A program made the position numbers and the translations under genes. The notes under the pieces were generated by a model. It did no database searches and was not told where the DNA came from. It saw only the letters and a program-made list of their open reading frames with translations. This document shows, one piece after another, positions 15,941 to 39,733 of a stretch of DNA of 40,983 nt. Where the stretch lies: positions 1 through 40,983 of IMG/VR virus record IMGVR_UViG_3300044956_000299; one strand, written 5' to 3'. How positions within the stretch are numbered: the stretch's first letter is position 1; every line of letters begins with the position of its first letter. Source of the DNA: a virus.

Positions 15941-15959
15941 TGCGTGCTCCGCAGGGAGG

Positions 15960-18489: not shown

Positions 18490-18517
18490 CCCTCCCGCCC
18501 ACGCGGCTGAGAGAACC

Positions 18518-20350
18518 TCAGTGAGTTTCTGCCCAAGTACGTCCGACTTGGGAGTTTCCGGCGAGGGGGCATCGGAATCCGAGCTTCTCGCCAGCGGCGG
18601 CAATAGCAGCAGGGGCCTCTCGGCCGATGGTCTCGACATGCTCCTCCTTGGTTTCGATCTGCCACTCGTCGTGGACGTTGAGGACGAACTCGTAATCCCT
18701 GCCGGGCACCAGCCCGAGGGCCTGCAGCTTCTCGTCGAGGATGACGAGGGCCACCTTCATCGCCACCGCGCCCGCGCTCTGGAAGAGGGCGTTCACGGCG
18801 GAATGCGGGGAACGGCAGGGGATCACCCGACCGTCCATTCCACGCAGCCGGCCCTTGGTCTTGGCCGTGGTCTGCACCAGCGATACGAGCCGGCCGAGCG
18901 CGGGTAACGCACGGAGGAACGCATTCTTCGCAGCCTGCCCTCTCTTCGCCTGCCCGTGCTTCCCGGTCAGGATGAGGCCGAGCTTCTCTGCACCGCCGCC
19001 GTACAGCCACGCGTAGAACCAAGTCTTCGCGGTGTCCCGGTTCGTGATGCCGAGGGCGTGCATGTTCAGCGTGTGCATGTCCGTGCCCTCGGACTTCTTT
19101 CCTTCGAGCACGGTCTTGATGTAGGCCCCGCCGTCGTAGCGCGCCATGAAGTGGGCCATGACCCGCAGCTCCAGCGCATCCGCATCGCAGCCCACCCACA
19201 CCCAACCGGGACGGGCGCGGAACAGGGCGCGGCACTCCTCGCCTAGCGGGCTGCCAACCTTCGGCACCTGCGCGAGGTTGGGCTTCTGATGAGACATGCG
19301 CCCGGTGACGGTACCCACCGAGGTGACGCGGCCGTAGATCACGCCGGTCTTGACGTGCTTGAGCCACGCCTCTTCGCCCTCAGCCAGCTGGCCGCACCGC
19401 TTCTCCAGCAGGAGGAACCGGGCGAGCAGCTTGGCCTCGGGGTACGGCAGAGCGCCGATCACTTCGTCGTCCAGCTTCGGCTCACCGGTCTCGGTGAACT
19501 CCGTGGGCTGCCACCCGTGGCGCCGCTTCAGCATCATGGCGATGTGGTGGCGGCTACCTGGGTTGAACTCCACCAGCTTCACCTTGCGCAGCGGGGCGTC
19601 CTTGACGTACCCGAACTTGGCATGGTCGCGCCGGGGCACGAAGGGGGCCGTGCCGTCCGGCAGGTAGAAGGGAGGAAACACCTCGCGCAGTTGGCGGCGC
19701 ACCTCCTCACGCTCGGCCGAGACTCTGGCATACAGGGCCGCCGCTCCGGCCTCGTCGAACGCCACGCCCCGCTCCTGCTGGCGAATGAGGATCGCCTCGA
19801 CTCCCTGCTCCACCCCGCACACGAGCTGGTCCCATGAGGAGTGGGCCATCAGCCGACGCAGCAGGGCCTCGGTGACTGCGAGGTCCTGCAGGCAGTAGTC
19901 CTCCATCTCCTGCGACCACCGCTCCCACCCGCCCCGGTAGTCCCCCTTGTAGCACCCGAGGCGGTGGCCCCACGCTTCGAGGGAGTGGCGGCCGATGAGG
20001 TAGCCGGGCATCTTGCCGAGGGCCGTGAGACGGAAGTCGTGCTGCTTGATCTCCGGCCAGAAGGCTCGAGCCAGCACGAGGGAGTCGGTGGTCTGGCTGC
20101 GCGGGATGGTCAGATGCGGGTACAGCTTGGCGATCACCCGCAGGTCGTAGCCGATTCCGTTGTGGAACGTGACCCGGTCCCCGTCCATGAGAAGCTGGCA
20201 CAGGAACTGGAGACCGCGTTCGATGCTATTCTCGTGCTCGTTGTGGCGGTAGACCCGCACCTCGCCCGTGTCCAAGTTGCGCATGGCGAAGATGTGGATG
20301 CGGGTCACTTCAGACAACAGGCCATTGGTCTCAAGGTCGGCGACCCACAT
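18518..20350 (-). CDS. DNA polymerase, family A with 3'-5' exonuclease, T7 gp5-like
   Basis: A 610-residue replicative polymerase (T7 gp5 has 704). Exonuclease motif I is at the very start (MWVADLETNG, D5 and E7), then VTFHNGIGYDLR and YCLQDLAVTEALL. Polymerase motifs follow: CDADALELRVMAHFMARYDGG (motif A), RDTAKTWFYAWLYGGG (motif B with arginine, lysine and tyrosine) and NVHDEWQIE (motif C). It resembles T7 gp5 end to end, with shorter linkers. The ATG at 20350 has AGGAGGT upstream; starting there puts exonuclease motif I at its usual position, so the longer in-frame start is rejected. A host thioredoxin partner is possible but not visible. Confidence 0.97.
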   Translation of the reverse strand: MWVADLETNGLLSEVTRIHIFAMRNLDTGEVRVYRHNEHENSIERGLQFLCQLLMDGDRVTFHNGIGYDLRVIAKLYPHLTIPRSQTTDSLVLARAFWPEIKQHDFRLTALGKMPGYLIGRHSLEAWGHRLGCYKGDYRGGWERWSQEMEDYCLQDLAVTEALLRRLMAHSSWDQLVCGVEQGVEAILIRQQERGVAFDEAGAAALYARVSAEREEVRRQLREVFPPFYLPDGTAPFVPRRDHAKFGYVKDAPLRKVKLVEFNPGSRHHIAMMLKRRHGWQPTEFTETGEPKLDDEVIGALPYPEAKLLARFLLLEKRCGQLAEGEEAWLKHVKTGVIYGRVTSVGTVTGRMSHQKPNLAQVPKVGSPLGEECRALFRARPGWVWVGCDADALELRVMAHFMARYDGGAYIKTVLEGKKSEGTDMHTLNMHALGITNRDTAKTWFYAWLYGGGAEKLGLILTGKHGQAKRGQAAKNAFLRALPALGRLVSLVQTTAKTKGRLRGMDGRVIPCRSPHSAVNALFQSAGAVAMKVALVILDEKLQALGLVPGRDYEFVLNVHDEWQIETKEEHVETIGREAPAAIAAAGEKLGFRCPLAGNSQVGRTWAETH

Positions 20351-20372
20351 ACCCCACCTCCTCACGTTGGTT

Positions 20373-20636
20373 TCATGCTTCTCCCCGCACCTCGATGGCA
20401 CCGAGGCCGTGCATGTCGAGCAGCCCCACGATCTCCTTCGAGAACTGCTCCATACCCATCCCGCCGAGCAGGGCTGCGTACCTATCCAGTGCCTTCTCGT
20501 AGGACAGCAGGGCCGAGAACATCACGATTGCCTCCGGGATCGGCATGGAGAACAAACCGTCTAACTTCTCGGCGTGTGCGGCGAGGAGGCCCTGCAGCGT
20601 TTCGCTTGCCTCCAGCTCAGAAGTCAGACGCAGCAT
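20373..20636 (-). CDS. Small protein between helicase and polymerase
   Basis: An 87-residue, mostly helical protein (SELEASETLQGLLAAHAEKL, EAIVMFSALLSYEKALDRYAALLGGMG) of unknown function. It starts inside the last 20 bases of the helicase gene, after GGGAGG, and is followed 22 bases later by DNA polymerase. T7 has small genes at the corresponding place (4.1 to 4.7), but no specific relation is claimed. Confidence 0.65.
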   Translation of the reverse strand: MLRLTSELEASETLQGLLAAHAEKLDGLFSMPIPEAIVMFSALLSYEKALDRYAALLGGMGMEQFSKEIVGLLDMHGLGAIEVRGEA

Positions 20637-22239
20637 CGGGTCCTCCCGGTTTGAATTCGCCAGCCACTTCGATGCGGCCGGTCTCGCGGTTGTAGAGCAG
20701 GGTGTCCGCCGTACCGGTCTCGCCGGTAAAGCGGTTCTTCAAGACGCGCACCTGCAACAGGGAGGACTCAGCGCCCTCGGCCTGCTGGTTGCGCTCCAGC
20801 GCGATCACCAGGTCCGACAGTTGCGCAATGGAGTGAGAGCCACGCAGGTCAGACAGGCGAACCTGTCCGCCCTCCTCGTGCGCCTTGCCCTCGCCACGCC
20901 GCAGGTGGGACACCAGCAACATGCCGGCCCCCGTCTCTTCCACAAGGGAGCGCAGGTTGGTCATGGTCACGTCGATGGCCTTGCGCTCGTCGGCTGTCTC
21001 CTGTCCGGACACCACGATGGACAGGTGGTCGAGCACCACGAACTGCACGCCGCACCCCTTGATCATGTACCGGACCTTGTTGATGAGGCGGTCGCTGGCC
21101 ATGGAACCGAAGTGGTCGTAGAGGTACAGGCGGCCACTGCCGGCCACCCGTTCCCACGAACCCCGGTGCTCCTGCAACTCCTCGTTCGAGAGCAGGTGCA
21201 GCGGGCGGTTCGCTTCAATGCTCATGAGGCCGAGCATCGTGCGGCGCACCGACTCCTCCAGTGCCACGATGCCGACTGTGGCGCCGTGGGTCATGAGCAG
21301 GTGGTGAGCCAGCTCACGGCACATCGTGGACTTGCCGATGCCGGTGCCGGCCGTGACGGTCACCAGCTCCCCCTGCCGCAGCCCGTGCGTGATGCGCTGC
21401 AGGGCGGGGTATGGGTAGGGCACCGAGGCGCGGGACACCTCCGTGAACACGATGTCCTCGGTGGTGGTGCCGGCCACGATTCCGTCCGGCCTGTAGGGGG
21501 CGGCCCGCCAGATCGCGTCGATCAGCTCGCGCTCGCGGTTGGCGCGCAGCATGTCGTTGGCGTCCTTGAGCGGGAGGCGGGCGATGTACGCCCGGCCGGG
21601 GGTCAGCAGTTGGGCGCACGCTTCCGCCGCCTTCTGACCCGGCTCGTCCATGTCGAACATCAGGACGACCTTCTCGAACGACTCAAGGTACTCCAGCGCA
21701 TTCTGGAAACACTTGGCCGCCCCCTGCGCGCCATTGGGGATGGAGCACACGGGCCACTTGTTGCCCTGCGCCTGCGACACCGACAGTGCGTCGATCTCGC
21801 CCTCCGTCACCACCAACATCTTGCCGCCAGGTTGCCACAGCCACATGCCGTAGAGCGGGGCCAACACGCCGCGCACCGAGAACTGCTTGCCAGCCTTCCG
21901 GATCTTCTGGCCGATCAACTGGCCGTGGCGGTTGTAGTGGTTGGCGATGTGCAGCTTGCCCTTCTCGTCCTCGCCTACCTCATACCCCCACTTCTCGCAG
22001 GTGTCCGCCCGCAGGCAGCGGGATTCGATGGGCACCACACTGCCGAACAGCTTGGCCCACGAGGAATCGGGGGCCTGCTCTTCGAGGTCGTCGGTAGTCT
22101 GCACGTCGTCTCCCTTCTCATAGCGTCCACAGCCAAAGCAGTAGGCGTGGCCATCCGAGTAGCGCGCGAGGTTGTCGCGGCTACCACAGGACGGGCACGG
22201 CTCTTTCCGAACGAACGAGGAGCCGGCCCGTTCGTGCAT
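20617..22239 (-). CDS. Primase-helicase, T7 gp4-like
   Basis: A 540-residue bifunctional enzyme (T7 gp4A has 566). An N-terminal zinc ribbon (C15, C18, C34, C37), TOPRIM primase motifs (VVTEGEIDALS with E146; DMDEPG at 196-201) and a RecA-type helicase with Walker A GTGIGKST at 298-305, plus later VQFVVLDHLSIVVSG, are all visible. It unwinds the fork and makes primers. The ATG at 22239 overlaps the previous TGA (TGATG) and begins just before the zinc ribbon; an ATG further upstream lies inside the previous gene and is rejected. Confidence 0.97.
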   Translation of the reverse strand: MHERAGSSFVRKEPCPSCGSRDNLARYSDGHAYCFGCGRYEKGDDVQTTDDLEEQAPDSSWAKLFGSVVPIESRCLRADTCEKWGYEVGEDEKGKLHIANHYNRHGQLIGQKIRKAGKQFSVRGVLAPLYGMWLWQPGGKMLVVTEGEIDALSVSQAQGNKWPVCSIPNGAQGAAKCFQNALEYLESFEKVVLMFDMDEPGQKAAEACAQLLTPGRAYIARLPLKDANDMLRANRERELIDAIWRAAPYRPDGIVAGTTTEDIVFTEVSRASVPYPYPALQRITHGLRQGELVTVTAGTGIGKSTMCRELAHHLLMTHGATVGIVALEESVRRTMLGLMSIEANRPLHLLSNEELQEHRGSWERVAGSGRLYLYDHFGSMASDRLINKVRYMIKGCGVQFVVLDHLSIVVSGQETADERKAIDVTMTNLRSLVEETGAGMLLVSHLRRGEGKAHEEGGQVRLSDLRGSHSIAQLSDLVIALERNQQAEGAESSLLQVRVLKNRFTGETGTADTLLYNRETGRIEVAGEFKPGGPDAASDF

Positions 22240-22508
22240 CAGGCGGCCTGCCTCGGGACGTAGACGTCGCCGTTGGAGGGGGCGATGGACCACCGGCCAT
22301 ACTGGTTGCCGTCGATGTCGGTGTGCGTCTCGCAATCGACGATCACGTCCGCTGCCCGCAGCTCGGCGATGCGGGCCGTGAGGTTGGGGATGCCGGCGTG
22401 CATCGCGGTGAGGCGGGTGACACCGCCGTCACGCTTCATCAGCTCGAACACGCGGGCGGCCTTCGGGGTGATGGGCGTGTCGACGACTACGAACTTGGGC
22501 TTGCGCAT
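22239..22508 (-). CDS. Small helix-turn-helix-like protein before the primase-helicase
   Basis: An 89-residue protein with GGVTRLTAMHAGIPNLTARIAELRAADVIV, the spacing of a winged helix-turn-helix, followed by a strand region (DGNQYGRWSIAP). It could bind DNA or the origin. It is the first gene after a phage-type promoter (22534-22555), with GGAGGA before its ATG, and is translationally coupled to the primase-helicase. Similar small proteins occur in many phages, but its function is not known. Confidence 0.7.
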   Translation of the reverse strand: MRKPKFVVVDTPITPKAARVFELMKRDGGVTRLTAMHAGIPNLTARIAELRAADVIVDCETHTDIDGNQYGRWSIAPSNGDVYVPRQAA

Positions 22509-22533
22509 TGCTGTTCCTCCAGTTGAAGTGACG

Positions 22534-22555
22534 TCCAGTAGGTACTACTAGGTGA
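22534..22555 (-). promoter_or_regulatory. Phage RNA polymerase promoter, replication operon
   Basis: Minus-strand reading gives TCACCTAGTAGTACC then TACTGGA. It shares TACCTACTGGA with the site before the polymerase gene and CCTACTGGA with 25418-25439. It lies 26 bases before the HTH gene and overlaps the amidase stop codon (22548-22550). Confidence 0.7.
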
Positions 22556-23042
22556 TGCTGCTGGTCTGCGGCTTGGCGGACTCCCACCACTTTTTTACGT
22601 CGAAGCTCGGGCAGCCCTTGAGCCACTCGTTGGGCGAGATGACTCCGTCACCGTTGCGATCAGGGGACAGGTCCCGGTGCCCGACCACCTGGGCTCCGGG
22701 GAACTGTCGGGTCAGGGCGGTGACCACTAGGCGGAGGGTGTCGATCTGCTCGCGCGTGCGGTTGTCCCGCACCTTGCTTTGCGCATCCACCCCGCCCACC
22801 CAACACACGGCCACCGAGTTGTTGTTGAACCCGACAGCGTGCGCCCCCGGCATGTTGAGCGGACGCCCGCGTTCGACGGTGCCGTCGCGCCGGATCACGA
22901 AGTGGTAGCCAATGCGCAGGAACCCGCGCTCGCGGTGCCAGCGTTCGATCTCGGTGACCCCAATGTCCGTTGTCGGGCCAGTGGCCGAGCAGTGGATCAC
23001 GATGTACTTCACCGCCTCGGGCGGCATTGGTCGGAAACTCAT
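22548..23042 (-). CDS. N-acetylmuramoyl-L-alanine amidase, T7 lysozyme-like (gp3.5)
   Basis: A 164-residue zinc amidase. Zinc and catalytic residues are H17 (IVIHCSAT), Y46 (GYHF), H122 (GHRDLSP) and C144 (GCPSFD); the first three have the same numbers as in T7 lysozyme. Between H122 and C144 lies DRNGDGVISPNE (128-139), a textbook EF-hand calcium loop absent from T7 lysozyme but known in related phage amidases. It cuts peptidoglycan; in T7 it also restrains the phage RNA polymerase, which is plausible here given the gene order. The ATG at 23042 overlaps the endonuclease stop as ATGA. Confidence 0.95.
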   Translation of the reverse strand: MSFRPMPPEAVKYIVIHCSATGPTTDIGVTEIERWHRERGFLRIGYHFVIRRDGTVERGRPLNMPGAHAVGFNNNSVAVCWVGGVDAQSKVRDNRTREQIDTLRLVVTALTRQFPGAQVVGHRDLSPDRNGDGVISPNEWLKGCPSFDVKKWWESAKPQTSSIT

Positions 23043-23431
23043 GACGAGCACCAGTGGGAAGGGACCGTCTTCGCCCACCACAGAAACCCGTTCCTCTCAC
23101 ACCACCCTGCGTAGGTGGTCAGAGAGCCCTTGGTGATGGGCGCGTGGGGTCGGTCGAAGACCAGCCGTATGTCTGCCGCCGGGTTCTGCTGCTTCACGAG
23201 CAGGAGCTTGCGGCGGTCGGTTGCGGTGAATCGCCCCTTCACTTCCACCAGCACCCCGTTGGGGAGGCGGAAGTCGGGGCGGTACTTGTGGACCTTGTCG
23301 TCCCGGTACGAGAGAGTGTGCTGCTCGTAGGCGAACTGCACGCCCTCGCGGGACAGGTCCTCAGCCACCCGCGCCTCGGACATGCTGCGGTATCCGAGTG
23401 AGCGGGCGCGGGCGGAGGTGCGGGCGGTCAC
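23039..23431 (-). CDS. Endonuclease I (Holliday junction resolvase), T7 gp3-like
   Basis: A 130-residue nuclease (T7 gp3 has 149). The active-site set is present: E19 (SEARVAEDL), D53 (YRPDFRLPNG), E63 and K65 (VEVKG), followed by the conserved DIRLVFDR and KGSLTTYAGWCERNGF. It resolves branched DNA and helps degrade the host chromosome. It starts with GTG overlapping the SSB stop (GTGA) and ends overlapping the amidase start, within the T7-order block SSB, endonuclease, amidase. Confidence 0.96.
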   Translation of the reverse strand: MTARTSARARSLGYRSMSEARVAEDLSREGVQFAYEQHTLSYRDDKVHKYRPDFRLPNGVLVEVKGRFTATDRRKLLLVKQQNPAADIRLVFDRPHAPITKGSLTTYAGWCERNGFLWWAKTVPSHWCSS

Positions 23432-24156: not shown

Positions 24157-24909
24157 TTAGAGGCCGCAGCCGAAGACCGCGCTACATCCAGATTCGTCCA
24201 CAACATCTTCGGAGTGGTCCTTCCCGTGGTGTGCCCACATGAGAACTCCGTAGATGCCTACTGCGTTGAATCGCTTGGGTCGGAACATCGGCTTGCCGAT
24301 CTCGACTTCGAGGCGGGAAACCTTGTCAGCTTCCTCAGGGCGCAGCCGCAGGAAGTCTTGCCGGTTGGCGTTGACACAGGGGTTGCACTCCAACGAGCGA
24401 TGCGGGAGCGGAGCGAACCCGGCCCGATAGAGCAAAGCGTCTCGGTCGGAGTCTGTGTGTTGGAATAGCGGATGCCAGAGCACGCGCCCGCCGTGGTGCT
24501 CCGAATCCGGGATGAACTCCGGCGTGTTGGCTCGCGCCCGGCTCTCGGCCCTCCGCTTACCCACCATCACCACCCACTCGGCCTCCGGGTCTGCGTCGTC
24601 GATCCACTGCAGGAACGGGAGTCCCTTGAGGTGGGCCGTGCAGAACTGCTGGCCGTTGCCGGGCCACCCCTTCTTCGTTCGCACCAGCTCCGCCATTCCG
24701 AGACTGCGAACCCTGACCGGCCTGAACCCGCAGCGCGCGGCGTACTCCTCACACTCCACAATTCGGGACTCCCACTGCGGAGCTGCCCATCCCGTATCGC
24801 AGTACACGGAATAGACGGGGCACTCATCCACCAGCCGAGCCTCGTGCGCCCATTGCATCATGGCGACGCTGTCATTTCCGTAACTGCAAGACAGGACGTA
24901 GGCTTTCAC
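24157..24909 (-). CDS. PP-loop ATPase, PAPS reductase-like
   Basis: A 250-residue member of the adenine-nucleotide alpha-hydrolase (PAPS reductase) superfamily. The PP-loop is SCSYGNDSVAMM at 7-18, followed by VYSVYCDTGW. The typical reductase segment QQFCTAHLKGLPF holds C90. Further cysteines form a CxxC (C175, C178) and a C-terminal pair (C242, C248), a pattern that could hold an Fe-S cluster, as in DndC- or thiolation-type enzymes. Phage members are often labelled PAPS reductase without proof. It lies in an operon with two small genes and SSB, with a GTG start overlapping the previous stop (GTGA). Nucleic-acid thiolation is a hypothesis. Confidence 0.85.
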   Translation of the reverse strand: MKAYVLSCSYGNDSVAMMQWAHEARLVDECPVYSVYCDTGWAAPQWESRIVECEEYAARCGFRPVRVRSLGMAELVRTKKGWPGNGQQFCTAHLKGLPFLQWIDDADPEAEWVVMVGKRRAESRARANTPEFIPDSEHHGGRVLWHPLFQHTDSDRDALLYRAGFAPLPHRSLECNPCVNANRQDFLRLRPEEADKVSRLEVEIGKPMFRPKRFNAVGIYGVLMWAHHGKDHSEDVVDESGCSAVFGCGL

Positions 24910-27889: not shown

Positions 27890-27910
27890 GGTTGGCGTCC
27901 TTGTTCGCAA

Positions 27911-27932
27911 TCCAGTAGGTACATTTAGGGTC
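27911..27932 (-). promoter_or_regulatory. Phage RNA polymerase promoter before its own gene
   Basis: Minus-strand reading gives GACCCTAAATG then TACCTACTGGA, 22 bases before the polymerase ATG. It is the best example of a family of similar intergenic sites (also 22534, 25418, 33748, 33775) and would give autocatalytic expression. Confidence 0.75.
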
Positions 27933-27946
27933 TTACGGAAACGGAA
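27932..27946. repeat. 15-bp repeat, copy 1 (polymerase leader)
   Basis: CTTACGGAAACGGAA occurs here, directly upstream of the polymerase promoter, and again at 35575-35589 upstream of the large terminase, in the same orientation. The remaining intergenic sequence to 28079 shows no gene and is a candidate place for an attachment site next to the integrase. Confidence 0.6.
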
Positions 27947-28079
27947 TGGAACAGACGTGCGCAGCCACACGCCGGGCACAACTGCTCGGCCTGCGGCTAC
28001 TAGCGCGGGGGTCTGTTCTCTACAAGGGCAGCGCGCCAGCCTAGACCTGGCCCGCAGCGCCGCCAGTTGGAGCAGAAAG

Positions 28080-29129
28080 CTAAGTCACATCAAGGTCTTG
28101 CGTGGTCGGAAGCGTGGTCACAGACCCAGGCACACCGCCTTCCAGCACCGAGAGGGCCGAGGTCAGCCGGGAGTCCACGGCGTGGGCGTAGCGCATGGTG
28201 GTCTGGATGGACGAGTGCCCCATCAGAGCCGCCACGGTCCGCACGTCCAGCCCCCCGGCCAGCAGGCGGGTGGCATAGGTGTGGCGCAGGGTGTGGAGGA
28301 CGACGTCCTGCCAGCCCATTGTCTCGCACAGCAGGCGCCACTCCCGCTGCATGTCCCGAGCCGGGCGAGGGAACAGCCGGCCCCCGCCACCCGCCATGCG
28401 CTCGGCCAGAATGGTCGAGGCGCGCTGCGTGAGGGGCATCCACCTGCGCCGCCCCGACTTCGTGTCCCACAGGGAGACCCGCTTGGCCACGAGGTCGACG
28501 TTGGCGGAGGTGAGGGACAGCAGTTCGCCCAACCGCATGCCGGTGTCCAGCAGCACGAACACCTCGTCGGCCAGCGGCCCCGGATCGACGGTGAGCATGG
28601 TCTCCACCTGCTGCAACTCGCCAGCGTTGAGGAAGCGCAGCCGGCCCTCCGGCTCCCGCATCCGGGGCACCTTCGGCACCCGCGCGAGGACCGGCGGGGA
28701 CTCGGCGGCGGCCAGCCGCAGCACGGTGCGCAGCACGTTGTAGCGGCGGTTCACCGTGGCCGGTCCGGCCCCCGCGTCCAGCATCTGCCCGGCTGCCTCG
28801 GACAACGAGGCCTCCGAGAGGGACGCGAGGGGCGTGGAGGGCGGCAGGTGGCGCAGCAGGGCAGCCCAGTGGGCGCGCACGTTCTCGCCAGCCTTGAGGT
28901 TGCGGAAGTGGATGGACCACGCCCGGTCGAAGTAGCCCCCGAGGGTACGCAGGTGCGGCGGCACGGCCTTGTTGGCCACCGTCTCGGTGCCCTTCCACAG
29001 CCCCACCTCCTTCTCCTTGAGCCGCAGCTCGGCCAGCTTGCGGTCGCTGGTGCCGGTGCTCTCACGGATGCGCTGGCCCTCGTGGTACAAGTCGATGTGC
29101 CAGACCCCGCCCCGCAGTTTCAGTCCCAT
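28080..29129 (-). CDS. int: Tyrosine recombinase (integrase)
   Basis: A 349-residue integrase with all catalytic residues: R199 ([12 protein letters not shown]), K224 in the beta-hairpin ([11 protein letters not shown]), H279 and R282 ([13 protein letters not shown]), H305 ([13 protein letters not shown]) and the nucleophile Y314. The N-terminus has an arm-type DNA-binding start ([21 protein letters not shown]) and a core-binding helical domain at about 65-150. The ATG has GAGGAGA upstream. It sits just before RNA polymerase, as in the integrase-bearing T7-like phages of marine bacteria. It implies site-specific integration into the host. No excisionase or repressor was recognised. Confidence 0.97.
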
Positions 29130-29200: not shown

Positions 29201-29410
29201 TTAAGACAACACGGTGGCCCGCACCTCGACCCCGGTGAACCGGTCCGGCGGCTCCGAAACCTGGGCCGCGAAGGCCTCGGCCACCCGCCGGGCGTGGGTG
29301 TCGGAGTCCTGATGCACATGAACCTTGACGGTGACGGTCTTGGCCGACACCTCCCGACCATGCACGAGGTACTGCACGCGCACGCGCGCCTTGCCGGTCA
29401 GAAGGGGCAC
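29201..29410 (-). CDS. Small early protein, beta-alpha fold
   Basis: A 69-residue protein starting with GTG at 29410, chosen because GGAGG lies seven bases upstream, while the longer ATG frame would overlap two genes. The pattern RVRVQYLVHGREVSAKTVTVKVHV, then a helix DTHARRVAEAFAAQV and a final strand FTGVEVRATVLS, suggests a small alpha/beta domain. It overlaps the previous gene by 13 bases. Function unknown. The 71 bases that follow to the integrase show no start-supported gene. Confidence 0.6.
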   Translation of the reverse strand: MPLLTGKARVRVQYLVHGREVSAKTVTVKVHVHQDSDTHARRVAEAFAAQVSEPPDRFTGVEVRATVLS

Positions 29411-29547
29411 GGCTGGCCCTCCGGGTAGCTGCGCTTGGCCTGCTTCGGCCGCGCCGGTGCCTTGCGGACGATGCGCTGCCCATCGGGACCCCACGAGTCC
29501 TTGAAGGGCCACGCAGGGGGCGCGGGCTGTGGCTTGGGGTTGGTCAT
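29398..29547 (-). CDS. Very small early protein, proline-rich
   Basis: A 49-residue basic protein (MTNPKPQPAPPAWPFKDSWG, then KAPARPKQAKRSYPEGQPCPF), two bases after the previous stop. GGAGG-type purines lie just upstream of the ATG. Short, disordered and basic, it may bind a host protein, as small early phage proteins often do. No motif is recognised. Confidence 0.55.
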   Translation of the reverse strand: MTNPKPQPAPPAWPFKDSWGPDGQRIVRKAPARPKQAKRSYPEGQPCPF

Positions 29548-29549
29548 GC

Positions 29550-29834
29550 TCAGGCCTCCCTCTCTGCGATACGCATGGCGCCCTCCAGCGTGCTGCTGCA
29601 GCCCACCTTGAGCCAATTGTGGGTGTACACGAAGAAGGGCCTCTTGTTGGTGGTGCTCGTCCACCGGCTCGTATCGCGGTACGGCTGGTGGGTGATGAAC
29701 AGGAACCGGCGCCCCCGCTGCCCGTGGCATATGTCGGTCCACTCGACCACGGGGCAGCGGACGCGCTCGGCTGCCGGTGTGCGGGCGAGCACGAACACGG
29801 GGCGCTTGGGCTTGGTGCTGGTGGTGTCGACCAT
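29550..29834 (-). CDS. Early protein of unknown function next to the methyltransferase
   Basis: A 94-residue protein with a basic, disordered start, then a likely folded part (VEWTDICHGQRGRRFLFITHQ, KRPFFVYTHNWLKVGCSSTLEG) rich in aromatics. Its ATG shares a base with the methyltransferase stop (TGATG), so the two are coupled. No family is recognised. Confidence 0.65.
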   Translation of the reverse strand: MVDTTSTKPKRPVFVLARTPAAERVRCPVVEWTDICHGQRGRRFLFITHQPYRDTSRWTSTTNKRPFFVYTHNWLKVGCSSTLEGAMRIAEREA

Positions 29835-30586
29835 CACGCGGCCTCCGGCAGGCATTCGACGCGCAGACCATCGAGCATGACGTGCAGGTCCACGAGGGCG
29901 GCGTGGCAGGCCTGAGCCAGCCCCACCGGGGTCATGCTGCGCAGCTCCTTGGTCCGCTCGGACTTGCCGCCGAGTTTCTGCAGCCACGACCCCTGCGCGC
30001 ATACCCGCACCGGCCCGCCGTTCTCCTGCGAGAGGGACCGGAACATGGCCGCGTCGAAGCACCCCCACAGCCCGGTCTTCTTCGTGTACCGCTCGGTCTC
30101 CGGGTTGTCGGCGAGGTGGGCGAACTGGTACGGGTCGACGTAGACGCGGGGCTTGCCGAGCGCGGGGCGCAGCTTGGGGATGCGACCCACCGAGTTCTCC
30201 AGCATCCAGCGGTTCGGTGCCAGCGCAGTGGCGATCCGCACGCACGCGTCCAGCACGGCCAGCGCGCGGTCCGTGGTGCCGTCCGCGTCCTTGGCAGGCC
30301 AGTACTGCGCACCGGACACAGAGAAGTCGGTGCAAGGCGGCGCAGCGAGGACCGCGTACACCTCCGCGCGCTGCGGGTCGGCGCCGGGGGTGTAGGCCAC
30401 CGCGTAGCGCGCGTACTTGACCACGTCCGAGGGCGTGAGCTTGGTCACGTCGTCGCCGCGCTTCAGGTCGTAGAGCAGGACCGTGTGGCCGGCACGCTGC
30501 CAAGGGAGGGTCCAGCGGCCCGAGTAGTCGCAGAGGGAGACGATGACACGGGCCGCGTTGGGACCCTTGCCGGTGATGATCTTCAT
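29834..30586 (-). CDS. C5-cytosine DNA methyltransferase-like protein
   Basis: A 250-residue protein with C5-methyltransferase hallmarks: a SAM-binding start IVSLCDYSGRWTLPW (15-29) followed by VLLYDLK; the catalytic loop AAPPCTDFSVSG with C85; and MLENSVGR (E130, N131), the counterpart of motif VI. It then has YTKKTGLWGCFD. It is shorter than bacterial enzymes and lacks an obvious target-recognition domain, as in a known phage subfamily. A likely role is protecting phage DNA from restriction. The ATG follows AAGGAG in the leader GGAGCCACACCATG, the same as before the 11367-11627 gene. Activity is not proven. Confidence 0.85.
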   Translation of the reverse strand: MKIITGKGPNAARVIVSLCDYSGRWTLPWQRAGHTVLLYDLKRGDDVTKLTPSDVVKYARYAVAYTPGADPQRAEVYAVLAAPPCTDFSVSGAQYWPAKDADGTTDRALAVLDACVRIATALAPNRWMLENSVGRIPKLRPALGKPRVYVDPYQFAHLADNPETERYTKKTGLWGCFDAAMFRSLSQENGGPVRVCAQGSWLQKLGGKSERTKELRSMTPVGLAQACHAALVDLHVMLDGLRVECLPEAA

Positions 30587-30613
30587 GGTGTGGCTCCTTG
30601 AGGTTGCGGAAGC

Positions 30614-30639
30614 GGGACCCGACGGGCGTGCCGGGTCCC
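30614..30639 (-). other. Hairpin between two early genes
   Basis: GGGACCCG (30614-30621) pairs perfectly with CGGGTCCC (30632-30639), 10-base loop, in the 69-bp gap before the methyltransferase. No U run. It may be a terminator or processing site for the preceding early genes. Confidence 0.45.
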
Positions 30640-30655
30640 TGATTAGGCCAGGTTT

Positions 30656-31129
30656 TCAGGCAGACACAGGGATGCCGAGGTAGGCACAAGCGTCGTCGCG
30701 GTCGAGCAGGCGGGTACCTTCGCCCGAGTAGACGAGAACCATGCCGAGCAGGGCGCCGTACCGCATGAGTACAGCGGCCCCCGCTCTTGCATCCATGCGG
30801 TTGTCGTAGTGGGAGGCCGCGCCGTCACGGGCATCCAGCACCTTGAACGCCAGCACCAGGCGTGCCGCGCACGAGGACTCCGGGATGGTCGTGATGAAGA
30901 CCGTACCCGGTTCCATGCGGTCGAGGGCGAAGTTGCGGTAGTCGCCCCGCGCCGGGTCGAAGAGGGTCACGAACTGCTCGCCCGTGCTCACGGTCCACAC
31001 CGGCCCCTCGGGCACGCCGCAGCGTGGCTCCGGGCGGTCGTCTCTGGGCTTCGTGTACTCGAAGCGGATCATGCTGCGGTTGAGGGCGGCTGCGTTGATG
31101 GCGTCGGCGATAGCTGCGATGTTGCTCAT
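30656..31129 (-). CDS. Early protein, possible WYL/SH3-like fold
   Basis: A 157-residue protein. The stretch MIRFEYTKPRDDRPEPR, then FVTLFDPARGDYRNFALDRMEPGTVF, resembles the barrel of WYL-type domains (strand, variable loop, strand ending in a conserved FALDRM-like motif), which bind ligands or nucleic acid. The C-terminal half is a mixed helical region. The ATG at 31129 with GAGGA upstream is preferred over an upstream in-frame ATG. Such proteins in early regions may act on host transcription or defence. The fold call is by pattern only. Confidence 0.6.
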   Translation of the reverse strand: MSNIAAIADAINAAALNRSMIRFEYTKPRDDRPEPRCGVPEGPVWTVSTGEQFVTLFDPARGDYRNFALDRMEPGTVFITTIPESSCAARLVLAFKVLDARDGAASHYDNRMDARAGAAVLMRYGALLGMVLVYSGEGTRLLDRDDACAYLGIPVSA

Positions 31130-31163
31130 GGTCTGTTCCTCGATGTGTGCTTCGTTGGACTGC

Positions 31164-31415
31164 TCAGAGATTGCCGGAGCCGGTGTGGAGGGCCTCAAAC
31201 GCAGTGAGGGCGCCACCCACGACGGTGCGCACCCACGCGGGGTCGGCGTCGCTGTTGAACGTCATGGTGAACGCCGGCCTACCCACAGACATGACGGAAT
31301 GCGACTCCACGCTGACGCGGATGACGGACCCATCGGCCCAAGCGTCCACGTTGAGGGGGAGCGTGCGGGCCATCCGGATGATGGCCTCGATGGTCTTTTT
31401 GGCTCGCGTGCTCAT
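31164..31415 (-). CDS. Small early protein
   Basis: An 83-residue protein: a helix (STRAKKTIEAIIRMARTL), a beta section (SVIRVSVESHSVMSVGRPAFTMTFNSD) and a final helix. GGAGG precedes the ATG at 31415, which lies just before the stop of the preceding gene. Function unknown. It is part of a run of small early genes with ribosome sites but few overlaps. Confidence 0.65.
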   Translation of the reverse strand: MSTRAKKTIEAIIRMARTLPLNVDAWADGSVIRVSVESHSVMSVGRPAFTMTFNSDADPAWVRTVVGGALTAFEALHTGSGNL

Positions 31416-31417
31416 GG

Positions 31418-31672
31418 TCAGGCCTCCACGGTTTCGTTCAGGATGCCGCACCACAGGGTGCGGGGCGTGCCGTCGTCAGAGGGCAGCATGGCGACGGCCT
31501 CGGATGCCACGGCGGGCGCGGGCGGGCGCCCCTCCGCGTGGGTGCAGACCCACACCGTCCACGGGCCACCGGCCTCCCGGCGCCCGACGAAGACGCGCAT
31601 GGTTTCGCGCTCGGCGATGCAGCGGTCGCGGGCTTGCGCGAGCGCCGCGTTGAAGAGGGTTTTCGAGAGCAT
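31418..31672 (-). CDS. Small early protein
   Basis: An 84-residue protein with a helical start (LSKTLFNAALAQARDRCIAERE) and a beta part (TMRVFVGRREAGGPWTVWVCTHAEG). The ATG at 31672 has AGAGG upstream; an in-frame GTG at 31687 is possible and would overlap the previous stop (GTGA). No family is recognised. Confidence 0.65.
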   Translation of the reverse strand: MLSKTLFNAALAQARDRCIAERETMRVFVGRREAGGPWTVWVCTHAEGRPPAPAVASEAVAMLPSDDGTPRTLWCGILNETVEA

Positions 31673-31683
31673 GGCGGCGCCTC

Positions 31684-32118
31684 TCACGCGAACAGGATGG
31701 AGACCGGGACGCTGCGCATCTCGTCGTTGAATTGCTGCAACAGCCCGCGCGCATACAGCCGCTTGTCGGCCGCGCGGCGGGCGATGACTTCAGCAGCCTC
31801 GGCGTGCTCCCACGCGTGCTCAGGCTGGACCACGCGTGTGCATTCAGCGGCTCGCGCTTCCTCGCGCTTCGCCGCATCCTCCAGCAAGGCGGCTTCGAGG
31901 CGCAGAAGGGCCGCGCGTATGCCGCTGCAGTCCTGCGCCACCTTCAGGGCCGCAGCGGCCTTCGAGGCCTTCGCGCTACGTCGCAGGGTGCGTGCGGTCT
32001 GCTTAGTGATGCCCCCGCGCCGGATGATGCGGGCGGCTGCGAGGGAGTCGGCGGTTTCAATGGCCACGCGGCGGGCGCCGGTGGTGGCATCCTGCAGGTG
32101 CTTCGTGTAGACGGTCAT
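31684..32118 (-). CDS. Early helical basic protein
   Basis: A 144-residue, alanine- and arginine-rich protein. After a short beta start (MTVYTKHLQDATTGARRVAI) come long helices with a likely coiled coil (SAKASKAAAALKVAQDC, RLEAALLEDAAKREEARAAE) and AAEVIARRAADKRLYARGLLQQ. It may bind nucleic acid or a host protein. No motif is recognised. Upstream lies a 101-bp gap with a small hairpin (32161-32165 with 32175-32179). Confidence 0.65.
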   Translation of the reverse strand: MTVYTKHLQDATTGARRVAIETADSLAAARIIRRGGITKQTARTLRRSAKASKAAAALKVAQDCSGIRAALLRLEAALLEDAAKREEARAAECTRVVQPEHAWEHAEAAEVIARRAADKRLYARGLLQQFNDEMRSVPVSILFA

Positions 32119-32219
32119 GGCGTCACTCCGAGGTTCGTAATGCGGCGCGAGGGCCGCGAGGGGCTAGGGTGCCCAGCCCTTCCGTACCTGCGCACCCTCG
32201 CGGATGCGCAAGCGGAAGG

Positions 32220-32999
32220 TTACCGGCGCGCGGCTTCGAAGCGCGATGCCAGCGAACCGTGGACGGCGATACGGATGGAGCCGCGCCCCTTACCACCCGT
32301 GCCGCTGCAGACCCCGCATTCGATGCACGTTAGCTTGTGACCAGCCTCGTCCGATGCGGGGCAGACCGATTCGCGGCCGACCGGCGCAGCATCGGCGGCT
32401 CCATGCACTCGAAAGGTTCGCCAGCCCAAAGCCTGCGCCTCTTCGGCCTCCGCGACAGTGTCGCACGATGCCATGCACAGGCTGCGAACGATGATCGGAT
32501 CGTTGCGCGAGTCGCAATGCTCGGCCGCAGAACGGGCGCGGGCTTCGAGGGTGCGCCATGCGTGCGTGTACCCAGTCCAGCCCGCTGCGTGACCGGTCAG
32601 GCGCAGAAGCACGCCCGCAGGCAGGGCCGCAGGGTCGCCATAGGCGCCGAGTCGGACGTGACGCCCCGCAAGGGTTTGGATCAGGATCCGCTGCGACGCG
32701 ATTGGGTAGGCGCCCTTTTGCCAAGCCTTAAACACGGACAACGGCCCTTGGAACGGAGTCACATAGCAAGCGCCGCCGTTGCCGCGACGATGCTTGCAGT
32801 CGCCGCATACGGACGAGTCGGCGCCGGTCTTGACTGCGTCATGGGGCGCCATGTCAGCAGGGAGAATCCAGACCTGCGCCATGTTCCCAGTCTTGGGATT
32901 GTCCGACTGCAGGGTCAGTATGGCCACGATGGGCGCTTGGTTGAGCATGGAGGGTCCTTGGTAGACGACGAAGCCCCGAGGGGCGGCGGATGCAGTCAT
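32220..32999 (-). CDS. First early gene; cysteine-containing phage protein
   Basis: A 259-residue protein of unknown function. The centre has SVCGDCKHRRGNGGACYV (C65, C68, C78) followed by GPLSVFKAW and LAGRHVRLGAYGDPAALP, a layout I recognise from conserved phage proteins of unknown role. The C-terminus holds a second cysteine set (CIECGVCSGTGGKGRG) like a zinc knuckle. The ATG at 32999 with AAAGGA upstream is chosen; a longer in-frame start at 33290 would cross repeat-rich sequence and is rejected. As the first gene after the junction it should be expressed at once. Binding to a host target is possible. Confidence 0.75.
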   Translation of the reverse strand: MTASAAPRGFVVYQGPSMLNQAPIVAILTLQSDNPKTGNMAQVWILPADMAPHDAVKTGADSSVCGDCKHRRGNGGACYVTPFQGPLSVFKAWQKGAYPIASQRILIQTLAGRHVRLGAYGDPAALPAGVLLRLTGHAAGWTGYTHAWRTLEARARSAAEHCDSRNDPIIVRSLCMASCDTVAEAEEAQALGWRTFRVHGAADAAPVGRESVCPASDEAGHKLTCIECGVCSGTGGKGRGSIRIAVHGSLASRFEAARR

Positions 33000-33180
33000 G
33001 GTGCGGATTCCTTTCGTTTGCGTTAGTGGGATGATCAGGCCGGATGCCCTTGCCCCTTCCTGATGCAGCCCGCGTGCCAGCAGAGTGACGGCAGGGGCGT
33101 GGCCTTGGCTAAGTATCGGTTCCGTAAGCGGAATGTTTCCGGAAGGGTCGGGAGGGGCGTAGGTGGCACGGATGGGCCAA

Positions 33181-33240: not shown

Positions 33241-33265
33241 AAGGGTAAGCGCGGCAGGTACCGTG

Positions 33266-33379
33266 CCCCGCACGCCCCGCGCCGTACCAATCAGGCGCCC
33301 CGCACGCCCCGCACGCCCCGCACGCCCCGCACGCCCCGCGCCGTACCAATCAGGCGCCCTGCGCGCCCTGCGCGCCCTG
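33266..33379. repeat. 9-bp tandem repeats flanked by 35-bp direct repeats
   Basis: A 35-bp sequence at 33266-33300 recurs at 33325-33359, offset by 59 bp. Between and around them the 9-mer CGCACGCCC repeats four to five times, then a variant (GCGCGCCCT) about three times to 33379. The array is likely to vary in copy number. Confidence 0.8.
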
Positions 33380-33747
33380 CATCAGGCAACGCAGCCCGTG
33401 ACGGATCAAAGGCTTAGGGCCGTGCGTGCCCATCCTGTGCCCATCTGGCGAACCGGACACACCCGCGCGCGTGACGCGAGAGCGCGCGTGCGCCAGGCGT
33501 GGGCGTGCGCCTGGGTGTGCGTGCGCGCGTGGGGGCACGGGGGGGACGACGGCGTGACGATGCGCGGGGAGACACCAAGAAAATTTGCGGTGCAAACATT
33601 TGGAACCTGGGGGTGGATTCTGAGCTGCCCCCCATAGGACCCTTAACTACCCTTCAGTGCCCCCTTATTCCCCCTTCTTGCCTTCTACTTACTCCTCAAT
33701 CTCTTCCCCCATATACCCCTTTCAGTCCCCTTCATTGTCCCTATGAG

Positions 33748-33769
33748 GCCCTTAGTTACACTTAGGGTC
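33748..33769 (-). promoter_or_regulatory. Phage RNA polymerase promoter near the genome end, downstream
   Basis: Minus-strand reading gives GACCCTAAGTGTAAC then TAAGGGC. The first half matches the polymerase-gene promoter in all but one of twelve positions; the second half differs. It lies 28 bp past the large terminase stop. Confidence 0.65.
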
Positions 33770-33797: not shown

Positions 33798-35540
33798 CTA
33801 CATGGACCACTTCCTGTGCCCGATCCTGTTGGTCTTCCCCTTCGGAGGGTGGACTCTCCCACCTCTCCAAGCTCCTGCGTCTTCCCGGAAGCGGCGGAGG
33901 GCTGCCTCCACAGCCGCCTCCTTGTGCTTGGTCTCGATCTTCTCTTGGTCGATGGCCATGAGGTCGACGAGCTTCTTCACAGCGGAGGCAAGGGCTTCTA
34001 GTCGGTCATCCCGTCTCAGTGCCCCTCGGTCCTTGGTGATGCGGGTAAGCTGGCGGAACAGTTGGCTGTCTACGTCTTCAACGAGGAGGTCATCTCTGGC
34101 CACCTGCTCTGCCACGATGAGGCGGTGCTGGTTGAGGACGGGTTCGAGTGTGTCGATGATCCTCAGCTCCTTCTGGCCGGTGGAGTGCTCCTCCTCCAGT
34201 CTGCAGGGGTGCTTGCGGAAGAGGGTGGGTGCCAGCAGCTTGAGGAACATCCCGTCCCCGAAGTTGCTCTCCACCCACACCTCGTTCACCTTGTACTCCT
34301 TGGCTACATCAGCCAATCCCTCCAGCGTCGTGTCTCCGTAGCCGTCCCGGTAGCCCCCAGACTTGAGGAGGTAGAGCTGGCCGGCGTTGAAGGCCACCAC
34401 GGCGAAGGCTGTCTCGTCCTTGCCTCGGCCGGAGGGGTCGATCCACATCACCCTTCGGGAGGGAGAAACAAAGTCCTTGGAGACGTACATGGGCTTGTGC
34501 CACCTGTCTCCCTTGAAGCCCACAGAGGGCAGAGACTCGTGAGCCTGCTCCAGCCCTGACGCCCACTGTACCCTTACGGGGACCAGCTCGGCCCTTGGGT
34601 CGATGGCCATCACGATGAGGTCCGAGATGCGCAGGGGGTGCTTGAGGGCGTCCGAGGCGCGGGTGTCGAGCATGAACTGCAGCGCGAACCCCGAGCGGCC
34701 GTAGGACTGCTCCCGTTCTCTCAGGTCCTCGTCGGAGAACCGGGACGGCTCGGTCGAGCGCCCAGCGATGGCCGGGTGCATCTCGACCGCCTCCCGGATC
34801 ATCGGGGAGCAGGTGTGCCCGTAGTGGGCCAGCCACTCAGGCGTGGGGTACCGGGCGGGCCACACCCGCACCGTGTAGCCCCGCTCAGGCAGGGCGTTGT
34901 ACAGGCTCTCCTCGCACTGCGGGGTGCCGAGGTAGACCACCTCCCCGCCCGGCACGAGCACGGCGTCGAACTCCTTGACCAGCTCCCCGAGGCGGTCCCT
35001 CTGGAGCTGGGTGAGGGAGTTCTTGGGGGTCTCCACGTCGTCGGCGACGATGATGGTCGCCCGGCCACCGGTCATCTGGCCTGTGATGCCCACCGAGCGC
35101 ACCGAGGGGGCCTGGTGGGGGCTGGAGGGGCCGACGTCAAAGGCGATGGCGGAGTCCCGTTGCCCGTCGTCCACACGCGGCTTGAGGTGCTGCAGGAAGG
35201 GCACCCGCTCGATCAGGGTGCGGCAGAAGATGGAGAAGGCGTCGGCGCGGTCCTTGGAGGCCGAGACGACCAGCACACGCTCCTCGGGGTTCTTCCGGAG
35301 CCTCCAGAGGACGTAGGCGGCCGTGAGCCAGCTCTTGCCCACCCCCCGGAAGGCCTCGACCACCCGGCGGGAGGGGCCGTGGGCGAGGAAGTGGGCCACA
35401 TCGTTCTGGATGGCGGTGGGTGGGGGGAGTCCCAGCTCCCCCCAAAGGGCCGCCACGAAGTTGCGGAAGTCGTAGTCCAGCATGTCGACCTCGGAGCCAT
35501 CCTCCAAGGTGATGCGGTAGTCGGTCAGCGGTTCGGTCAT
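33798..35540 (-). CDS. Terminase large subunit, T7 gp19-like
   Basis: A 580-residue packaging motor (T7 gp19 has 586). The ATPase has Walker A FRGVGKS (64-70), VVSASKDRAD and Walker B IIVADDVE (163-170), then GTPQCEESLYNALPERGY. The nuclease domain shows WIDPSGRGKDETAFA, WVESNFGDGMF and DDRLEAL. The conserved DIVGP-like stretch FDVGPSSPHQAPSVRSVGITGQ is nearly identical to T7. The ATG at 35540 fits the T7 N-terminus; a longer in-frame start at 35621 lies in a region without coding support. The gene stands 176 bp after the reductase and is the last late gene. Confidence 0.97.
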   Translation of the reverse strand: MTEPLTDYRITLEDGSEVDMLDYDFRNFVAALWGELGLPPPTAIQNDVAHFLAHGPSRRVVEAFRGVGKSWLTAAYVLWRLRKNPEERVLVVSASKDRADAFSIFCRTLIERVPFLQHLKPRVDDGQRDSAIAFDVGPSSPHQAPSVRSVGITGQMTGGRATIIVADDVETPKNSLTQLQRDRLGELVKEFDAVLVPGGEVVYLGTPQCEESLYNALPERGYTVRVWPARYPTPEWLAHYGHTCSPMIREAVEMHPAIAGRSTEPSRFSDEDLREREQSYGRSGFALQFMLDTRASDALKHPLRISDLIVMAIDPRAELVPVRVQWASGLEQAHESLPSVGFKGDRWHKPMYVSKDFVSPSRRVMWIDPSGRGKDETAFAVVAFNAGQLYLLKSGGYRDGYGDTTLEGLADVAKEYKVNEVWVESNFGDGMFLKLLAPTLFRKHPCRLEEEHSTGQKELRIIDTLEPVLNQHRLIVAEQVARDDLLVEDVDSQLFRQLTRITKDRGALRRDDRLEALASAVKKLVDLMAIDQEKIETKHKEAAVEAALRRFREDAGAWRGGRVHPPKGKTNRIGHRKWSM

Positions 35541-35574
35541 GGATGGGGCTGCGGCTGCGCCAGAAGGCGCGTGG

Positions 35575-35589
35575 CTTACGGAAACGGAA
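35575..35589. repeat. 15-bp repeat, copy 2 (large terminase leader)
   Basis: CTTACGGAAACGGAA is identical to 27932-27946 and in the same orientation. The surrounding 176-bp gap between reductase and large terminase has no supported gene. Confidence 0.6.
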
Positions 35590-35675
35590 GCGGATGGGTG
35601 CAGGTAGCCAGAGGCCCCCAAAACGCGTTGTAGAGCGTCTCAGGGGCCTTGGCGGCGGTTTGTTCACAAATCGGG

Positions 35676-35715
35676 CTTGTCCACGCGTAGTGAACACTCA
35701 CGTTTTGTGGACAGG
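35676..35715. other. Inverted repeat after the reductase gene
   Basis: CTTGTCCAC (35676-35684) pairs with GTGGACAGG (35707-35715) with one G-T pair; the 22-base loop contains AGTG/CACT. It begins right after the reductase stop at 35717. There is no clear U run. It may end or process the reductase message, or bind a protein as DNA. Confidence 0.5.
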
Positions 35716-35716
35716 G

Positions 35717-37339
35717 TCAGATGCCGCAGACGCCCCCCTTGCAGGAGTCGTTCTCCTCGAACTCCACCCCGGTGGCCCCCTTGGCCTCGTGGTAGTCCAC
35801 GGCGGTCAGGGGCTGGCCCCCACGGGACCCGTCGGGGTAGGCGGTGAACCCACGCAGCCGGGGGGCGTACTTGGCCAGTACCTGGGCGAACTCCGAGACC
35901 CGGTCCTCGTTGTTCCACTCCGTGCCCCACGCGGGCAGGTTGATAGTCGAGGAGATGGCCATGTCGACGTAGTCCTGCACGTCGGCTTGGAACTTGACCC
36001 GGCGCTCGAAGTCCTTGGCCATCTCGGAGGCGGTGTCGATCTTCGAGGGGTCGATCCCGTGGGTCTGGATCAGGGTCTCGGCCACCTCGTCGATGACGTA
36101 CTTGTAGACCCACTGCGTGCCGGTCTTGAGGTACCGGCGCTTGTAGGCCACGGCGTACAGGGGTTCGATTCCTGTGGTGGTGCCCGCGAGGATTCCGATG
36201 GTCCCGGTGGGCGCGATGGCCCGGTAGGCCACGGGGTGGGAGATGCTCAGGCGGTCGCAGAGGTAGTTGGCACCCGACTCGCTGGCCAGCTTGTAGGTGT
36301 TCAGCCAAGTGTGCAGCTCGGGCGTCACCTCGTACTTGCAGCCCCGCTTGAGGAGCCACTCGTGCATCCCCATCAGCCCCAGCCCCAGCCGGCGGTTCTT
36401 CTCCCGCACGGTGTAGACCTTCTCGTAGGGCAGCTCGGCGCGCATCGTGCCGCACACCAGGAACTGCGAGGCCAGAATGGCGACGTTGTACAGCTCCGCG
36501 ATGCTGTCGATGCTGCCGAGGTTGATGCTGCCGAGGTTGCACACGTCCGAGTCGTCCTCGGAGGTCACCTCGGTGCAGGCATTGCGCAGCGTCTCATTCT
36601 GCTTCGAGCCGAAGTTGAAGCTGAACCCCGGCTCCCCGGTCTGCATCGCCTGCCGGCAGTTCTTCAGGAAGGTCCCGTTCGTAGGCCCTGCACGGAGCCA
36701 CTCGTCGTCGTAGTTCAGACTGACGTTGGTCATGTCCAGCGGGGCTGCGTGGTTGAAGTTCTCCTGCTTCGCATCCCAATGCGAGACCTCCTTCGTGATG
36801 GACTGGTCGGCCCAGTTCTTCGCCACCAGCAGCTTCTCGGCGTCGGCGTGCTTCCAGTTCAGGCTGGCGTAGATCGCGGACCTGCGGGCGCCCCCCTGCA
36901 TCACATTCCTGCCGATCTCGTTGATCGAGTGCATGAGGGGGATGGGGCCGGAGGCGAGGCCGCCGGTGCGGGACAGCGCGGAGCCTTCACCGCGCAGGGC
37001 GGTGTAGTCGATCCCGATGCCGCCGCCGGTCATGAGGCAGGACATCGCGCGCTGCGCCAGTGCCGACCACTCCTCGCGGGTATCGTGATCCGCGCGCAGG
37101 AGGTAGCAGTTGTTGTAGAACCTGGCCGGGCGGCCCGCGTAGTAGAGGTAGCGTCCGCCGGGGATGAACTTCATCTCGGCGATGTACTTCTCCAGCTGGT
37201 CACAGTCGTCGCCGTGCATCAGTCCTCGGCACACCGAGTCGACCACCCGCTTCGCAAGCGCAGGCCAGGAGTCGCTGGGACCCTGTGCGTACTTGATGCG
37301 GAAGATGGACTCGCCGAGGGAGCTGCGGAATTGGTGCAT
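35717..37339 (-). CDS. Ribonucleotide reductase, class II-type (adenosylcobalamin-dependent)
   Basis: A 540-residue enzyme making deoxyribonucleotides. Motifs in order: NNCYL (C78), MTGGGIGIDYTALRGEGS (103-120), QGGARRSA (148-155), NACTEV with the N253-C255-E257 catalytic triad, CNLGSIN (C267, the redox partner), and a C-terminal cysteine pair CKGGVC (533-538) for re-reduction. QGGARRSA and the absence of a small-subunit (NrdB) or NrdD partner point to the B12-dependent class, as in some T7-like cyanophages. It lies between small and large terminase genes, an odd place for a metabolic gene. The host would have to supply cobalamin. Confidence 0.92.
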   Translation of the reverse strand: MHQFRSSLGESIFRIKYAQGPSDSWPALAKRVVDSVCRGLMHGDDCDQLEKYIAEMKFIPGGRYLYYAGRPARFYNNCYLLRADHDTREEWSALAQRAMSCLMTGGGIGIDYTALRGEGSALSRTGGLASGPIPLMHSINEIGRNVMQGGARRSAIYASLNWKHADAEKLLVAKNWADQSITKEVSHWDAKQENFNHAAPLDMTNVSLNYDDEWLRAGPTNGTFLKNCRQAMQTGEPGFSFNFGSKQNETLRNACTEVTSEDDSDVCNLGSINLGSIDSIAELYNVAILASQFLVCGTMRAELPYEKVYTVREKNRRLGLGLMGMHEWLLKRGCKYEVTPELHTWLNTYKLASESGANYLCDRLSISHPVAYRAIAPTGTIGILAGTTTGIEPLYAVAYKRRYLKTGTQWVYKYVIDEVAETLIQTHGIDPSKIDTASEMAKDFERRVKFQADVQDYVDMAISSTINLPAWGTEWNNEDRVSEFAQVLAKYAPRLRGFTAYPDGSRGGQPLTAVDYHEAKGATGVEFEENDSCKGGVCGI

Positions 37340-37372
37340 GGGTGTGGCTTTCGGGTGGGAGCGTTGCCGGCG

Positions 37373-38424: not shown

Positions 38425-38430
38425 AGGCGA

Positions 38431-39678: not shown

Positions 39679-39686
39679 GGGTGCTC

Positions 39687-39722
39687 GAAAATAGGAACCC
39701 CTCCGGTGGTCAGGCGGAGGGG
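39687..39722 (-). terminator. Terminator before the tail fibre gene
   Basis: On the minus strand CCCCTCCG (39722-39715) pairs with CGGAGGGG (39705-39698), 9-base loop, then TTCCTATTTT. It lies between the gp16-like stop (39734) and the fibre ATG (39678), which follows within about 10 bases of the T-rich run. Confidence 0.8.
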
Positions 39723-39733
39723 CGGGGGAGGAA

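Follow-up and report, generated by a model that had tools for sequence, protein, structure and literature searches.

How a phage with a self-amplifying RNA polymerase stays quiet is a long-open question, and the locus described here raises it in a pointed form. A preliminary description of the virus contig IMGVR_UViG_3300044956_000299 (positions 1 to 40,983; "the window" hereafter means this whole stretch of 40,983 nucleotides) had reported a complete tyrosine integrase gene directly before the RNA polymerase gene of a T7-like genome with no visible repressor, and had asked how lysogeny would be chosen and kept. The question is real, and it is sharper than was originally put, because the relatives carry a MarR-like gene and this phage is without it.

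The phage genome and its integrase

The two ends of the record (positions 1-178 and 40806-40983) overlap directly over 178 bp with 177 of 178 positions identical, a gp16-like reading frame continues across them, and a contig from another sample (L266) spans the junction. The overlap and the spanning contig together make the genome appear complete and circularly permuted. Since L266 runs through the junction, the ends of the record are an assembly cut and not genome ends; the physical end region is probably the stretch around 33265-33381, where tandem GC-rich 9-mers form two blocks within 782 apparently non-coding nucleotides between the terminase and the early genes.

The genes follow the T7 order, from RNA polymerase (RNAP), gp2.5, endonuclease, amidase, primase/helicase, DNA polymerase and exonuclease to portal, scaffold, capsid, tail tubes, internal virion proteins and terminase. 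The genome thus combines a single-subunit RNAP gene with T7 gene order on one strand, as is characteristic of the Autographiviridae, and the T7-like setting was correctly recognized. Three other genes on the minus strand were recorded: a ribonucleotide reductase large-subunit gene (35717-37339; 540 aa) in an unusual place between the terminase and tail genes, a PAPS-reductase-like gene shortly after RNAP (24157-24909), and an early gene (29834-30586) that matches the phage DNA methyltransferase family phrog_757 and, like cytosine methyltransferases, contains a PPC motif.

The features of the integrase region are listed in Table 1. The integrase matches PF00589 (E value 1.1e-24; 87.6 bits against a cut-off of 27.1) and a PHROG integrase family (4.5e-53), and its GC content at third codon positions (0.92) is similar to that of the neighboring genes. 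The six catalytic residues that had been named, R199, K224, H279, R282, H305 and Y314, align with the equivalent residues of seven cultured T7-like integrases. In an alignment of 29 sequences, five of the catalytic residues were invariant, while the position of H279 was occupied by histidine in 25 and by tyrosine in 4. The AlphaFold2 model (pLDDT 88.7) has three strands (residues 3-24) and a helix (30-46) at the N terminus, core-binding helices (58-143) and then the catalytic domain, and its Foldseek matches include Tn1549 Int, lambda Int and P2/HP1 Int. At the level of the predicted fold, the protein thus appears to have the arm-binding and core-binding domains of a lambda-type heterobivalent integrase, together with the R-K-H-R-H-Y set in the catalytic fold of a tyrosine recombinase. 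The RNAP gene begins 190 nt further on, on the same strand and with no gene between, at a start codon at 27889 preceded by AAGGA, so that the position directly before RNAP is also borne out. Whether the gene encodes a working-type (heterobivalent) integrase of the temperate branch of T7-like phages, with its attachment site attP in the gap before RNAP, we consider an evenly balanced proposition.

Table 1. Features of the integrase-RNA polymerase region and related sites in the window
Feature	Position	Strand	Details
Promoter-motif match	22532..22555	-	Upstream of the 22239-22508 ORF
Putative T7-type phage promoter	25416..25437	-	26 nt after the RNAP stop
T7-type single-subunit RNA polymerase (gp1-like), 808 aa	25463..27889	-	PF00940 8.5e-114; phrog_414 8e-220
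Putative T7-type phage promoter upstream of RNAP	27909..27932	-	CCCTAAATGTACCTACTGGATT; recurs after RNAP
Predicted attP region, integrase stop to phage-type promoter	27934..28079	-	Placed by position
Strong hairpin, possible terminator or RNase III site after the integrase gene	27949..28018	-	-43 kcal/mol; z -6.4
Weak candidate recombination core	28031..28055	-	GCGGGCCAG-GTCTAGG-CTGGCGCGC; 8/9 inverted repeat around 7 nt
Tyrosine integrase gene, 349 aa	28080..29129	-	ATG; AGGAG Shine-Dalgarno
Co-directional early gene block upstream of integrase	29201..33015	-	Without MarR-like gene
WYL-domain ORF without helix-turn-helix, only regulator-like gene found	30656..31129	-	PF13280 3.6e-7; 30.5 bits (cut-off 21.8)
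Promoter-motif match	33750..33769	-	Near the likely genome end

The integrase-polymerase pair in other T7-like phages

An RNAP gene lies downstream on the same strand in many relatives of the integrase among viral contigs and in all cultured T7-like relatives examined; the cultured phages with the pair are BB8, LUZ100, S2B, RHEph01, Pasto, HTVC019P and P-SSP7. An integrase precedes RNAP in 17 of 21 neighbors by primase, counted where RNAP was present with at least 1.8 kb upstream of it. The pair has already been reported in T7-like phages (PMC10134795, PMC8631192); it is an established arrangement, and the finding as first stated is of low novelty. The view that integrase-bearing T7-like phages are mainly marine is out of date, as the cultured ones infect Rhizobium, Agrobacterium, Caulobacter, Bordetella and Pseudomonas (PMC10134795, PMC8631192, PMC7073063), and T7-like prophages were found in many high-GC bacteria.

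The pair could in principle be an assembly chimera, or the recombinase could serve another purpose such as the resolution of concatemers. Two contigs of metagenome 3300044957, L186 and L266, match positions 17570-23362 and 34151-40983 plus 1-4678 at 99.5% and 99.9-100% identity and come from a separate assembly of this phage species, but both fall short of 23.4-34.1 kb, so that the integrase region is represented in a single assembly only. However, this gene order is shared by dozens of phages and contigs of independent origin, and T7-like phages need no recombinase to resolve concatemers, which they do during packaging. Either explanation is highly improbable. By its integrase, which lies next to RNAP as in temperate T7-like phages of the Pasto, vTRX32-1 and LUZ100 type, the phage is a real and ordinary member of the temperate-type T7-like phages.

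Layout of integrated relatives

The preliminary description had suggested a search of bacterial genomes for prophages with this pair. An RNAP profile was searched against bacterial and archaeal species genomes, and the best 80 of 157 matching loci were kept. These RNAP loci often had no integrase upstream but had a tRNA gene within a few hundred bases. We then took 16 bacterial genomes that contain T7-like RNAP prophages and searched them for integrases. In 11 of them, a same-strand integrase gene lies 38.0-43.5 kb downstream of RNAP on the same contig, a distance typical of a phage length. In three of the other five genomes, the contig stops less than 41 kb from RNAP. The chance of such a placement was roughly estimated, at about 10 integrases per 5 Mb, to be less than 1% per genome.

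Direct repeats (attL and attR) delimit nine prophages of 39.0-44.9 kb. In three of the nine, the repeats are short (13-17 bp), and the assignment of these three draws additionally on position and, in two cases, on the tRNA. Joining the flanks restores an intact tRNA in seven of the nine prophages. Five of these seven tRNAs are tRNA-Leu(UAG), and their repeats have TTTAGGTT of the anticodon loop in common; a published Rhizobium integration site is CAGATTTAGGTT (PMC8631192). In all nine prophages, the identified phage genes begin with RNAP, which starts within about 1.1 kb of attL, and end with the integrase gene; this order places attP between the integrase gene and RNAP.

Integrated relatives of the predicted kind thus exist, but only distant ones were recovered, with RNAP at most about 39% identical to that of this phage; the searches of bacterial genomes returned no host and no close integrated relative. 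In a Litchfieldella prophage (L097, L169), the host tRNA-Leu(UAG) is split with no tRNA left at either end, and the phage's own tRNA-Leu(UAG) adjoins the integrase gene, resembling the replacement tRNA of the Rhizobium phages (PMC8631192). In a Vampirovibrionales metagenome-assembled genome, two T7-like RNAP loci (L094, L129) have runs of three and two consecutive MarR-like genes upstream.

Predicted attachment site and promoter-like motifs

Since an att repeat lies between the integrase gene and RNAP in nine of nine prophages, the corresponding gap of this phage should, by analogy, hold attP. The inverted repeat that we considered as a recombination core was rejected: 119 of 2000 shuffled sequences did as well, and the candidate is not significant. 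A comparison of the gap with 398 Pseudomonadota genomes returned no attB; the matches, distributed over 301 genomes, were no more than expected by chance. One 23/24 match, which recurred in three related genomes, apparently falls in a single conserved coding gene and was judged to be due to chance. A tRNA-like element between the exonuclease and portal genes (15958-16028, minus strand; tRNA-Tyr(ata) by ARAGORN) has perfect acceptor and T arms, but its anticodon arm is odd; the element was rejected as attP, being 12 kb from the integrase gene and without an Rfam tRNA match at E values up to 5.

The strong hairpin of the gap sits between the candidate core and the promoter motif upstream of RNAP. 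Most relatives tested also have hairpins in this gap; however, random 190-nt stretches of this genome reach a z of -5.25, and the hairpins are therefore not specific evidence.

RNAP is flanked by two putative phage promoters. For the long form of the motif, shuffled sequences gave an expectation of 0, and the longer-motif searches were significant, but the motifs had been built from the sites themselves; in the 20-mer test, the pair flanking RNAP matches at 17 of 20 positions only, which equals the best shuffled control. A first scan with a strict 16-of-20 rule returned mainly tandem repeats and was discarded. In six of the nine prophages, the segment between attL and RNAP has its best repeat 5-59 nt after RNAP. 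The corresponding distance is +26 in this phage, +42 in S2B, +49 in RHEph01 and +36 in BB8. No sigma-70 promoters were predicted in 27.8-33.8 kb.

Integration as a possible off switch

The position of attP and the promoters flanking RNAP suggest how integration could silence the phage, as integration would leave RNAP with a self-dependent promoter only. During infection, the host RNA polymerase would read the early operon through the integrase gene into the RNAP gene and start the lytic cascade. Recombination of attP in the short gap with a host attB would then produce a prophage that begins with RNAP and closes with the early genes and the integrase gene. RNAP, separated from the early operon and placed behind a promoter that the phage RNAP alone could use, would fall silent, and excision would reconnect it with the early operon and re-arm the phage. 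The relatives would add a MarR-like regulator to this cut, while the present phage would depend on the cut alone or on a regulator that escaped recognition. That integration itself is the off switch in temperate T7-like phages, and that a phage without the MarR-like gene could persist as a prophage without a repressor, we propose tentatively, as a possible but somewhat unlikely mechanism. The integrase is intact and the layout recurs in nine prophages; from these sequence comparisons we infer where attP lies in this phage and how the phage may be controlled.

At the right ends of all 11 integrated relatives, a MarR-like gene lies immediately before the integrase gene, and most free relatives have one there too. 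An iterated HMM search of all six frames found no MarR-like gene in this genome, and the early genes scanned had no match to MarR-like or Pfam helix-turn-helix families. Within that scope, the earlier impression of no visible repressor holds, with the WYL-domain ORF as the sole regulator-like gene, and it is the absence of the MarR-like gene that makes this phage unusual among its kind.

A temperate phage in which another regulator, such as the WYL protein or an unrecognized small early protein, has taken the place of the MarR-like protein would account for this absence. WYL domains are known from bacterial transcription regulators, and the ORF lies in the early region with a PF13280 match above the cut-off. 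However, it lacks a helix-turn-helix, a search of viral contigs found no relatives of it, and its AlphaFold2 model was uninformative (pLDDT 36); we regard such a replacement as improbable.

The phage may instead be essentially lytic, the integrase being a relic or used for rare, transient integration only, because the MarR-like lysogeny regulator was lost. Genomes with the integrase-RNAP pair and without the MarR-like gene are scattered over the integrase tree, which suggests repeated loss of the gene. The gene is absent in 13 of 56 free genomes versus none of 11 integrated ones, so that a link between its loss and a lack of integration is suggestive only (Fisher p 0.07). Bordetella phage vB_BbrP_BB8, also without the gene, is reported to be strictly lytic, with an integrase that its authors called a relic (PMC7073063), and the T7-like cyanophages P-SSP7 and S-TIP37 have been shown experimentally to integrate without forming stable lysogens (PMC8776855). 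On the other hand, this phage's integrase gene is entirely intact and its codon use is normal, and P-SSP7 is non-lysogenic despite its MarR-like gene, which means that the gene is no simple predictor of lysogeny. We give an essentially lytic life a substantial, though minority, chance. For a temperate life speak the intact integrase, the 11 of 16 genomes with an integrase at phage length and the nine mapped prophages; against it stand the failure to find attB, a host or a close integrated relative and the missing MarR-like gene.

With integration as the proposed off switch, the interest of the locus comes from the comparative layout and a testable idea of the lock, not from the integrase-RNAP pair itself. 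The shared layout, with polymerase first, integrase last and mostly a promoter-like repeat between attL and the polymerase, makes it testable how such a phage stays quiet: either severing the polymerase from the early operon is enough, or a MarR-like protein is required. The phage is a deeply diverged, MarR-less addition to the temperate-type T7-like phages, and it warns that an integrase gene alone is insufficient to call a phage temperate.

Comparison with known systems

The closest cultured RNAP (36% identity) is that of LUZ100 (OP329100; PMC10134795). Like the present phage, LUZ100 has the integrase gene followed by a terminator (T4), a phage promoter and RNAP, and its annotated phage promoters before and after RNAP correspond to the motif pair found here; unlike the present phage, it has a MarR-like gene and a tRNA-Leu beside the integrase gene. 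In the Rhizobium phages vTRX32-1, RHEph01 and relatives (Paadamvirus), for which integration at a 12-bp tRNA-Leu site has been published (PMC8631192), the integrase gene is also directly before RNAP, but the integrase is only about 29% identical to that of this phage, and the integrase gene of RHEph01 is accompanied by a MarR-like gene and by a replacement tRNA-Leu. Agrobacterium phage Pasto and Pelagibacter phage HTVC019P, which are reported to integrate and lysogenize (PMC10134795), share the T7-like order with the integrase gene upstream of RNAP, whereas they have a MarR-like regulator upstream of the integrase gene.

BB8 matches the present phage in having the integrase gene before RNAP, no MarR-like gene and promoter-like repeats flanking RNAP, although its integrase sequence is not specially close. 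In P-SSP7 and S-TIP37, attP lies downstream of the integrase gene, like the attP predicted here; the MarR-like gene of P-SSP7 has no counterpart in this phage. A parallel to the proposed lock is the integration-dependent immunity of mycobacteriophages, in which integration itself changes the state of a control gene (PMC4557955). In those phages, the attachment site is reported to lie within the repressor gene (PMC9635641, PMC4557955), whereas the cut proposed here would fall between the early operon and the polymerase.
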